Source of the DNA: a virus
Length of the DNA stretch: 29,026 nucleotides
Virus record (IMG/VR): IMGVR_UViG_3300042691_006467
Location: 1-29,026 of that record
Direction: 5' to 3' (one strand)
How positions within the stretch are numbered: the first letter of the stretch is position 1; the number at the start of each line of letters is the position of its first letter. A program made the position numbers and the translations under genes. This document shows, piece after piece, positions 12,828 through 20,251 of the stretch. The notes under the pieces are model-generated. The model was not told the DNA's origin, did no database searches, and worked only from the letters and a program-made list of their open reading frames with translations.

Positions 12828-13058
12828 TTATTCAGGTTTATCTACTGGACAAGGCGCTTTAAGTAGGTTACCGCAGTTAGCACATTGAACATCAAGTGCA
12901 TACCAACAGATGTCATAGTCTTCAAACTGAACGTAGGTATTGAATACAGTACAGCCACAAACACAGGCGTGTGTCGGACCAATGGAACGCAAATCAGATG
13001 CCTGTATCGGCGGTAGTGTTGGTCTGTTTTTCAACAGCCGGAGTAGACGGAGAACCAC
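12828..13058 (-). CDS. Zinc-ribbon protein
   Basis: A leftward gene between two rightward operons. The conserved part is ACVCGCTVF...FEDYDICWYALD...CANCGN, with paired CxC/CxxC cysteines that would hold one zinc; related small proteins occur in many phages, role unknown. The start is unsettled: GTG 13058 gives 76 residues without a clear ribosome site, while TTG 12992, giving 54 residues from MRSIGPTHACVCG, directly follows a TGA in another open frame. The second start is attractive because the residues before it look unlike a folded protein. Confidence 0.65.
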   Translation of the reverse strand: MVLRLLRLLKNRPTLPPIQASDLRSIGPTHACVCGCTVFNTYVQFEDYDICWYALDVQCANCGNLLKAPCPVDKPE

Positions 13059-13071
13059 ACTCTGCTCGGCT

Positions 13072-13189
13072 AGGCGCGTCGAGCGCCTCGCAGTTGGGAG
13101 AGCGCCGGTCTAGCGCTAGGCGCTCTCTTTATATTCGCTGACGCTCATATTGTAGAAAGAAACGGCGTGTCACTGGATTAGACACGCCG
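13072..13189. promoter_or_regulatory. Hairpin cluster before the rightward DNA-metabolism operon
   Basis: Three perfect inverted repeats lie in this intergenic stretch: AGGCGC/GCGCCT at 13072-13088; GAGAGCGCC/GGCGCTCTC at 13098-13127 with a 12-base loop, followed by TTTATATT; and CGGCGTGTC/GACACGCCG at 13163-13189 with a 9-base loop. The middle one may end or regulate transcription and the TATATT after it could be a -10 element. The third, read leftward, is followed by TTTCTTTC and could be a weak leftward terminator. The stem of the middle hairpin recurs before the terminase gene. Confidence 0.65.
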
Positions 13190-13229
13190 ATAAGTAGTAA
13201 ACTTTTTTCTCCGAAGGAAAGGACTGCCG

Positions 13230-13796
13230 ATTACTACGCTCGTTGGAATACAGTTAGATGACCGGTGCATACTAGCAGCAGATTCCCAAGTCACCGAAGA
13301 TAATCTCCGGACTATATCCACAGCCGTGCCGAAGATAGTCTCGGTTGGAAAGTATTTACTTGGAATCGTAGGAGATTCAAGACCTGGAGATATTCTTGCC
13401 TACAACTGGACTCCGCCGGTTTACAAAGGCGCTGACCCTGTTCACTGGATGGGTAAGAAAGTCTTGCCATCCATAATAAAAGCATTCAAAGATAATGGAT
13501 ATGACCCATATGAAGCAACAAAAGATAAAGACGCAGGGTTCGACTACCTTGTCGCGTTTGCTGGCAACCTATTCCACGTTGCGTGTGACTTATCGTTCAT
13601 CCAAAGTAAGTTGGGAATCTACGGTTTGGGGACGGGTGGTCAGTTCGCTCTTGGTTATCTTGCTGGCTTACCTACTTCTAACCTCATTGTAAAAGCAGAG
13701 CAACACGCCGAGAAAGCAGTTCAACTAGCGTCGGTGCTTGATGTCAATACACATCCTCCAATACAATTAGTTTCTCAAGAGAGGGTGTATCAATGA
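13230..13796 (+). CDS. HslV/proteasome-beta-like Ntn peptidase, probable ATT start
   Basis: A 188-residue threonine-peptidase relative. Starting at ATT 13230 it reads (M)TTLVGIQLDDRCILAADS: Thr2 would become the N-terminal nucleophile after Met removal, with D18 and K35 (in AVPKIV) matching the Asp17/Lys33 pair of HslV. Further family marks are LGIVGD, GTGGQFALGYL and AEKAVQLASVLDVNTHPPI. No ATG, GTG or TTG occurs in frame between the stop at 13191 and GTG 13326, and AGGAAAGG lies 7 bases before ATT, so ATT is the best start. Starting at 13326 would remove the active site. Substrate and role in infection are unknown. Confidence 0.78.
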   Translation: MTTLVGIQLDDRCILAADSQVTEDNLRTISTAVPKIVSVGKYLLGIVGDSRPGDILAYNWTPPVYKGADPVHWMGKKVLPSIIKAFKDNGYDPYEATKDKDAGFDYLVAFAGNLFHVACDLSFIQSKLGIYGLGTGGQFALGYLAGLPTSNLIVKAEQHAEKAVQLASVLDVNTHPPIQLVSQERVYQ

Positions 13797-13948: not shown

Positions 13949-14145
13949 AGAAAGACTTCAGCAGATATACGATTCATCTGAACAGATATTATTTAGAGAA
14001 CTGGTCTATTGGGATTGACTTCTATAGGGTATATAGATTTCCGGAGTCAGTGCTTAGTGCTACAGTATTCCAAATCAGTTTCTTATTCGGTAACATTACA
14101 TTGACGAGATGGCAGGACAAACTATGGACATCAAAGAGTTATTAG
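13945..14145 (+). CDS. Small hypothetical protein
   Basis: A 66-residue frame from GTG 13945, which overlaps the previous stop and has CAAGGAAC about 8 bases upstream; earlier in-frame ATG 13882 lies inside the previous gene and is less likely. It is aromatic-rich (IHLNRYYLENWSIGIDFYRVYRF) with a hydrophobic end (FQISFLFGNITL) but no clear membrane span. Its last 22-37 bases overlap the nuclease gene. No family recognised. Confidence 0.6.
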   Translation: MKKDFSRYTIHLNRYYLENWSIGIDFYRVYRFPESVLSATVFQISFLFGNITLTRWQDKLWTSKSY

Positions 14146-15071
14146 TAAAGGCGTTACACGCCAAGGAAAATGCTAGACCAAGGTCTACGCAGATACAGGT
14201 AGGGCCATCAGAGTTGGGTGGCTGCCGTCGTAAAGTCTGGTACAAACTAAACGACCAGCCAGAGACTAACGATAATGAATTGAAACTAGCAGCGATTATG
14301 GGTACTGCTATTCATAATGCTATTGAGAAGGCTTTAGATAAACATACAGGAGTGATGCTTGAATCCGAAGTTGAATACAACGGAATGAAAGCACACGTCG
14401 ATTGCTACCTACCGGACAGCGGGGATGTAATTGACTGGAAGACAGTAAAGGCTAAGAACCTTTCCTATTTTCCTTCGGAACAACAACGCTGGCAGGTGCA
14501 AACCTACGGCTACTTAATTGAACAATCTGGATTGGGGAAGGTTCAGAATGTTCATCTAGTCGCTATACCAAGAGACGGTGATGAGAGAGATATAAAGGTC
14601 CACTCAGAGAAGTACGATTCTTCTATCGCTCTAGAAGCCCTCTCTTGGTTAGAGGCTGTCAAAGAATCACAGGTAGCACCAGCACCAGAACGAGATGAAT
14701 CTTATTGTAAATTTTATTGTAAATACTATGACGCAACTGGTGAGATTGGATGCGTTGGTATAAAAAAAGAACGTACAAAAACTGAACAAATAATAATCGA
14801 GGATTCCGAAGCAGATAAAAATGCTTTGGAGTATTTGCAACTGGATGCCAAGATAAAGGAACTGACTGAACGAAAGGAAGGACTCAAAGAGTCGCTTGCT
14901 GGATTACTCGGTGTTACTAAATCTGGCATCCAAGTGCAATGGTCTTCAGTGAAAGGAAGTTTCATTGTTGACAAAGAAGAAATACAAAATAAACTTGGAT
15001 ACATTCCTGGCAAAGAAGGCAAGGAATCTACAAGAATAACAGTCAAACAAATAGGAGGAACTAATGTCTGA
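14109..15071 (+). CDS. Cas4-like iron-sulfur PD-(D/E)XK nuclease with coiled-coil tail
   Basis: A 320-residue nuclease of the RecB/Cas4/AddB group. Visible in order: SELGGCRRKVWY (C39), GTAIH (H69), D98 in AHVDCY, VIDWKTV (D109 and K111), and QVQTYGY (Q131, Y135). C200, C204 and C215 with C39 match the four cysteines of a 4Fe-4S cluster. These enzymes trim DNA ends, often for recombination. Residues about 235-275 form a coiled coil, followed by a small domain (LLGVTKSGIQVQWSSVKG) like that at the end of some YqaJ-type phage exonucleases. ATG 14124 (MDIKELL) with AGGA six bases before is an equally good start. Confidence 0.85.
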   Translation: MAGQTMDIKELLVKALHAKENARPRSTQIQVGPSELGGCRRKVWYKLNDQPETNDNELKLAAIMGTAIHNAIEKALDKHTGVMLESEVEYNGMKAHVDCYLPDSGDVIDWKTVKAKNLSYFPSEQQRWQVQTYGYLIEQSGLGKVQNVHLVAIPRDGDERDIKVHSEKYDSSIALEALSWLEAVKESQVAPAPERDESYCKFYCKYYDATGEIGCVGIKKERTKTEQIIIEDSEADKNALEYLQLDAKIKELTERKEGLKESLAGLLGVTKSGIQVQWSSVKGSFIVDKEEIQNKLGYIPGKEGKESTRITVKQIGGTNV

Positions 15072-19357: not shown

Positions 19358-19622
19358 AACCTACGCAGAGAACCGCATATCGCGTATCCGTATATACGGA
19401 ATAGATGTGCCTGATTATGAGCGTATGCTTGAAGAACAGAATGGCGGTTGCTATATCTGTGGCAAGAAACCCACGAAGCGAGCGCTAGATATTGACCACG
19501 ACCACGAGACAGGCAAAGTCCGTGGTCTTCTTTGTTCTAACCACAATAGAGCACTTGGTTTGCTTGGAGATAACTTACTTCTATTGGTCAGGGCTATGGA
19601 ATATCTGGTGAAAAACAAATGA
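19338..19622 (+). CDS. Recombination endonuclease VII-like HNH nuclease
   Basis: A 94-residue protein of the T4 endonuclease VII group. Zinc ligands C38, C41 (GGCYICGKKP), C66 and H69 (LLCSNHNRALG) surround the catalytic DIDHDHETGKVRG segment at 51-63. The family resolves branched DNA before packaging. It is shorter than T4 gp49 and lacks its C-terminal domain, as is normal in actinophages. The stop is overlapped by the sigma factor start (ATGA). Confidence 0.9.
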   Translation: MPRNRNKTYAENRISRIRIYGIDVPDYERMLEEQNGGCYICGKKPTKRALDIDHDHETGKVRGLLCSNHNRALGLLGDNLLLLVRAMEYLVKNK

Positions 19623-20251
19623 CAAACTATTTACATCCGACTCTTGATGAGTTAGTTCCTTCAGTTGTCTATACAATTCATAGAAAGTATCGTCAATGGG
19701 TAGAGAAAGGTGACCTACTCCAAGAGGGTTGGGCTTTTGTATTATCAAGAGCAGACCAGTTCAATGAACTTCTATCTGATGAGTCAGATATACAGCGCAA
19801 ATGGAACGAGAAGAAGATTGCTTGGCAGATACGCAGAACCTTAGAACGCTATGCTCGCAAAGAGAAAGCGGCAAAGTCTGGTTATCAGATAAATGATGAA
19901 ACCTATTACGACACAGTGACTATCGCACAACTACTACCTTTTGTAATCAAGTCCTTTGTATTAGATACTGCCCTTGAACAGAGCCAAGTCCTAGTCAATG
20001 ATGGCACACCTAAGAAGCCATCTGCCCCTGCTGAAGGTGGCAACCTATTGGCTATGCTTGTTGATATAAAGAAGGGCTATGAGAAACTAGATAAGGAAGA
20101 GCAAGACATTCTTCGTCTTAGATATTACGAGAACCATACACTTCAGCAACTTGCTGAGTATCTTGAATGTCACTTCTCTACTGCTGACCGCAGATGCCAG
20201 AGCGCACTGCGTAAATTGCAGAATGAAATCGGTGGAGATAGTCCTTACTAA
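19619..20251 (+). CDS. RNA polymerase sigma-factor-like protein
   Basis: A 210-residue sigma-70-type protein. Region 2-like sequence lies at about 10-50 (VYTIHRKYRQWVEKGDLLQEGW), and region 4 at about 150-205 (LDKEEQDILRLRYYENHTLQQLAEYLECHFSTADRRCQSALRKL spread over the helix-turn-helix). The linker (about 100-140) is long and lacks a clear region 3. It should steer host RNA polymerase to phage promoters, perhaps with the WhiB protein. It overlaps its neighbours by 4 and 1 bases. Confidence 0.82.
   Translation: MTNYLHPTLDELVPSVVYTIHRKYRQWVEKGDLLQEGWAFVLSRADQFNELLSDESDIQRKWNEKKIAWQIRRTLERYARKEKAAKSGYQINDETYYDTVTIAQLLPFVIKSFVLDTALEQSQVLVNDGTPKKPSAPAEGGNLLAMLVDIKKGYEKLDKEEQDILRLRYYENHTLQQLAEYLECHFSTADRRCQSALRKLQNEIGGDSPY

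Follow-up and report, generated by a model that had tools for sequence, protein, structure and literature searches.

Where does translation of a predicted proteasome-like peptidase begin when its frame holds no canonical start codon ahead of the catalytic threonine? This question is raised by a virus record of 29,026 bases (IMG/VR record IMGVR_UViG_3300042691_006467; GC 45 %), which may be a fragment and whose whole length is referred to here as the window. The peptidase frame (13191-13796) is closed upstream by TAA at 13191 and its first canonical start codon is GTG 13326, while translation from ATT 13230 reads ITTLVGIQLDDRCILAADS. We confirmed on the sequence that the frame contains no ATG, GTG or TTG between TAA 13191 and GTG 13326 and that AGGAAAGG ends 7 nt before ATT 13230, as the initial annotation had stated. 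The features of the gene are as follows.

13230-13796, + strand: gene for an N-terminal threonine peptidase of proteasome-like (HslV/BPH-like) type; 188 aa from ATT to a TGA stop
13230-13232, + strand: putative start codon ATT, aligned with ATG or GTG in 73 relatives, with ATC in two and with ATA in a separate lineage
13233-13235, + strand: codon of the catalytic Thr1 (T2 with Met), invariant; Thr would be exposed after Met removal
13281-13283, + strand: codon of the catalytic Asp17 (D18 with Met), invariant in the alignment
13332-13334, + strand: codon of the catalytic Lys (K35 with Met, corresponding to Lys33 of HslV), invariant in the alignment

The initial annotation had placed Thr, Asp and Lys in the spacing of HslV. 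This holds for Thr and Asp, but the Lys falls at mature position 34, one residue beyond its place in HslV (Lys33). Similarly, a start at GTG 13326 had been expected to remove the active site; Thr and Asp would indeed be lost, although the Lys, whose codon lies directly downstream of GTG 13326, would be retained.

Start codon position among viral relatives

We found 516 relatives in viral contigs, kept the best 80 and read 79 of these, L011 being left out of the start-codon count as its contig begins inside the gene. Among these 79 and the window (n = 80) the position of ATT 13230 holds ATG in 50, GTG in 23, ATT in five (the window, L002, L003, L004 and L007) and ATC in two (L005 and L006). Following two wider scans, a larger set of 97 distinct window-type sequences contained 63 ATG, 27 GTG, four ATT, two ATA and one ATC. 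The N-termini of the homologues therefore fall at the position of ATT 13230 and not at 13326, which supports the earlier contention that gene callers restricted to ATG, GTG and TTG would lose the catalytic Thr. T2, D18 and K35 are invariant in the peptidase alignment (K35 across 43 aligned family members) and the ATT/ATC lineage shows purifying selection, with dN/dS values of 0.078-0.18; the window compared with another ATT relative gave 0.078 at a dS of 0.95. As these residues are invariant, the ATT matches the ATG/GTG of 73 relatives and dN/dS is as low as 0.078, the comparison indicates that the upstream coding of Thr and Asp and the position of the ATT are not due to chance. A sequencing error is very unlikely to account for the codon, since five contigs carry ATT and two carry ATC.

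Translation from GTG 13326 or a later canonical codon, with the upstream similarity surviving as a relic, is hardly credible. No canonical start precedes GTG 13326 in the frame, but this internal GTG is unconserved, relatives having GTT or ACT in its place, and L004 and L007 contain no ATG, GTG or TTG within their first 60 codons; the invariance of T2 and D18 in a gene under purifying selection also argues against a relic. It is improbable, if less so, that translation begins further upstream and yields a short propeptide that is removed by autoprocessing. CTG 13224 of the window is in frame, and in L005 and L006 a GTG lies in frame 15 nt ahead of the ATC and is a possible start in those two. 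However, neither codon is found across the lineage, L002-L004 having an out-of-frame CTA and L005 none. CTG 13224 also abuts the Shine-Dalgarno word with zero spacing, and a survey of proteasome homologues found propeptides in the proteasome beta subunit and HslV alone (PMC8665760). Initiation at ATT 13230 itself is thus the reading that we carry forward.

In a tree of the family the window clusters with L002-L004, and a second group comprises L005-L007 together with L024. L024 has an ATG start and an upstream region of the leaderless type (see below) yet groups with ATT/ATC relatives, so that by this tree an exchange of upstream regions or a reversion must have occurred within the lineage. 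We infer a direction of change from leaderless to leader-bearing; this direction is not proved and the placement of L024 counts against it.

A pattern scan for further ATT relatives returned known loci apart from L085, which we rejected as a chance match. Frames at 377, 1448, 2380, 15681 and 18208 of the window were considered as candidates for hidden non-canonical starts and dismissed, as canonical starts are present in them and most are conserved. Among the frames checked in the window, the peptidase gene thus appears to be the sole clear case of a non-canonical start. The window gave no tRNA and no Rfam family, and hence no special initiator tRNA.

Family, possible partners and genomic neighbourhood

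The peptidase matches PHROG_1040 ('peptidase HslV family', E = 8e-20) and falls slightly below the cut-off of the Pfam Proteasome family. The match to the HslV equivalog TIGR03692 is weak (24.7 bits against a cut-off of 157.75), placing the protein outside that equivalog. An AlphaFold model built with 40 sequences (pLDDT 89.3, pTM 0.86) gave as its best Foldseek match the beta-proteobacterial proteasome homologue BPH (5ovs; TM 0.73-0.75, E = 4.6e-11), followed by HslV, and the profile search gave the same order (BPH 1.2e-11, HslV 5e-10). The predicted model has the Ntn fold of proteasome beta subunits that characterises group I (HslV, BPH, AAH and PPH), and T2, D18 and K35 correspond to the Thr1/Asp17/Lys33 catalytic set of that group. 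On the basis of the model we assign the peptidase to group I as a proteasome-like subunit of BPH/HslV type.

BPH (5ovs/5ovu) is the nearest solved structure by both profile and fold and shares the N-terminal Thr with Asp and Lys; it differs in showing 20-22 % identity over the structural alignment, and the window peptidase is phage-borne with an ATT start. With HslV it shares the Met-Thr-Thr start layout and a GSGG-type motif, which is GTGG in the window. PPH, at ~140 residues, lacks helix 2, whereas the window protein has 188 residues and both helices (50-59 and 70-88) in the model. AAH and PPH resemble it in being phage-borne members of group I, the comparison with AAH resting on its published description. 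Group I homologues were reported in phages by Fuchs 2021, where AAH was most abundant in Actinobacteria and an Actinobacteria-specific phage encoding AAH was not found (PMC8665760). The present loci contribute many further proteasome homologues from phages that bear actinobacterial marks. Among the viral matches is an uncharacterised protein of a Gordonia phage, and two scans of genome contigs returned no cellular relatives.

It had also been suggested that the peptidase acts without HslU. Searches of 15 related records (27-43 kb, all possibly fragments) gave no AAA_2 or AAA domain and no ClpX/HslU-type unfoldase, the controls being positive in 14 of 14 genomes. This absence and the proximity of the fold to BPH, for which no unfoldase is known (PMC8665760), favour the suggestion; it stands in part, since fragmentary records could lack such a gene and a partner could come from the host.

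Two flanking genes help to place the peptidase within the genome.

12828-13109, - strand: small Cys-rich (zinc-ribbon-like) ORF, divergent; first canonical start GTG 13058, start uncertain
14109-15071, + strand: Cas4/RecB-like exonuclease, present in 78 of 80 loci and the first large gene after the peptidase in the operon

The divergent ORF is found on the opposite strand in 77 of the 80 loci. It has the pattern CxCxC ... CxxC and no family matches, and its similarity to relatives continues upstream of GTG 13058. A small ORF lies downstream of the peptidase in 78 of 80 loci, and the exonuclease is followed by genes for a WhiB regulator, a DnaB-like helicase, a RusA-like resolvase and a primase; the peptidase gene stands at the head of this replication operon. 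The host probably belongs to the Actinobacteria and is probably from freshwater; the actinobacterial assignment follows from the WhiB gene in the operon and from the terminase and gp9481, both of which match Streptomyces phages.

Upstream region and start-site change

Alignment of 22 upstream regions revealed a shared inverted repeat and a shared TANNNT word, with ~18 additional nt confined to the ATT/ATC rows. The corresponding features of the window are given below.

13163-13189, no strand assigned: inverted repeat CGGCGTGTC...GACACGCCG, candidate operator
13198-13203, + strand: putative -10 box TAAACT, at the same place as the -10 box of the presumed leaderless promoter of relatives (alignment and TANNNT statistics)
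13204-13229, + strand: stretch from the -10 box to ATT, exceeding that of relatives by ~18 nt in the alignment and containing the predicted 5' leader
13217-13223, + strand: Shine-Dalgarno word GAAAGGA, the best such word, 6 nt before ATT

All of 15 records contain the inverted repeat, each at a single site, and wherever upstream regions were aligned it lies just ahead of the peptidase gene. All 44 distinct upstream regions of canonical (ATG/GTG) relatives have TANNNT 5-9 nt before the start, compared with a shuffle mean of 3.9 and maximum of 12, a control that overstates significance as the sequences are related and so non-independent. In a larger set the word lies within this distance in 80 of 82, the remaining two, read by eye, showing it at 10 nt. 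Of the 44 canonical relatives, 39 have no Shine-Dalgarno word 4-11 nt before the start, and AAGGA is present in all four distinct ATT/ATC leaders. GAAAGGA of the window gave a duplex energy of -10.0 against an assumed anti-Shine-Dalgarno of actinobacterial 16S rRNA. As a control, a sister subfamily had TANNNT in 3 of 44 upstream regions (shuffle mean 2.0). This subfamily (L084, L091-L170; ct2KA10 type, 199 viral loci) carries a GGGGACA-like word before ATG/GTG, and the leaderless pattern is absent from it. Promoters of M. tuberculosis have a TANNNT -10 motif and no conserved -35 element, and many are leaderless (PMC3898074). The peptidase genes of the ATG/GTG relatives look leaderless, given the near-fixed distance of the -10 box and the lack of a Shine-Dalgarno word in most of them.

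These relatives could alternatively be transcribed from a promoter further upstream, TANNNT being no -10 box and the inverted repeat forming a hairpin in a leader with a distant Shine-Dalgarno. In favour of this, AAGGAG occurs in some relatives at 12 nt from the start, and the upstream region holds another conserved block, which contains CTCATATTGTAGAAA. We nevertheless regard it as unlikely: 39 of 44 are without a Shine-Dalgarno at usable distance, TANNNT is kept in all at its near-fixed distance, and the ATG of an inserted endonuclease ORF occupies the same place. This insertion, found in L284 and L307, puts an endonuclease VII ORF (PF02945, 5e-20) of ~413 bp precisely on the peptidase start codon; in L284 the gene spans 1088-1504. 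Its ATG lies 8 nt from TATATT, the same spacing as that of the peptidase ATG in the insertion-free relative L069, and the peptidase is left with ATA, which overlaps the endonuclease stop as ATAA. By this arrangement the endonuclease VII gene seems to have taken over the promoter and ATG of the peptidase, and because the inserted ATG keeps its spacing from the -10 box, both the promoter and the start position gain independent support. A 10-mer, AAGGACTGCC, is common to the window leader (13219-13228) and the inserted endonuclease gene (L284 1106-1115). We did not adopt it as the scar of a past insertion, L002 and L005 being without it and its chance occurrence being roughly 1 %.

We consider it likely that the window encodes an ATT-started BPH/HslV-type peptidase whose gene was ancestrally leaderless and gained a leader in the window lineage, a proposal that combines features established by sequence comparison (start position, catalytic residues, -10-like pattern, extra leader and synteny) with a predicted peptidase fold. 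In the ancestral state the -10 box would lie 6-10 nt before ATG or GTG, so near that the start codon would itself form the 5' end of the mRNA. The window lineage would then have gained ~18 nt with a Shine-Dalgarno between the -10 box and the start, removing the need for AUG or GUG at the 5' end, and the codon would have become AUU or AUC, a change that, as the initial annotation had suggested for ATT, probably lowers peptidase synthesis, and that leaves operon transcription unaltered. Ribosomes would begin at ATT 13230, positioned by GAAAGGA 6 nt upstream, and the initiator Met would be cleaved off because Thr follows, which would bare the catalytic Thr1 with no propeptide involved. Assembly of the subunits probably gives a self-compartmentalised peptidase that works without a dedicated phage unfoldase, and its action would fall early in infection, given the place of the gene at the head of the replication operon.

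Near-cognate starts are usually weak (PMC13009471), and the ATT lineage might be thought to make little or no peptidase from a gene heading for loss. This seems very improbable, given dN/dS values of 0.08-0.18, catalytic residues that persist at dS as high as 0.95 and a strong Shine-Dalgarno word in all distinct ATT/ATC leaders. In S. aureus, AUU and AUA starts with extended Shine-Dalgarno words reach ~10 % of AUG (PMC13009471). The window gene resembles cvfC1 and ccpN of S. aureus and infC and pcnB of E. coli in its AUU-type start, strong Shine-Dalgarno and conservation in relatives, but differs from them in being a phage gene and in that its start follows an extra leader where the promoter of relatives looks leaderless. 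What is new here is this apparent leaderless-to-led switch of the start site, the proteasome-like peptidase itself being of a known kind.

A broader reading, to which we give somewhat less than an even chance, is that an ancestrally leaderless peptidase lost its canonical start at least twice (to AUU/AUC with a Shine-Dalgarno leader, and to AUA via endonuclease VII) under continued selection on the protein, the start codon tuning an active protease at the head of a replication operon. The apparently leaderless AUG/GUG, Shine-Dalgarno-led AUU/AUC and endonuclease-coupled AUA genes constitute three natural start-site states with close relatives as controls, making the evolution of start codon and leader testable. 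Other N-terminal nucleophile enzymes could likewise lose a catalytic residue to gene callers limited to ATG, GTG and TTG.

Elsewhere in the window we observed a phage-encoded sigma-70 region 4 protein (19619-20251), which might recognise the conserved promoter, and a gene with collagen-like Gly-X-Y repeats (1481-2458; PF01391, 2.7e-43) that has a TTG start.
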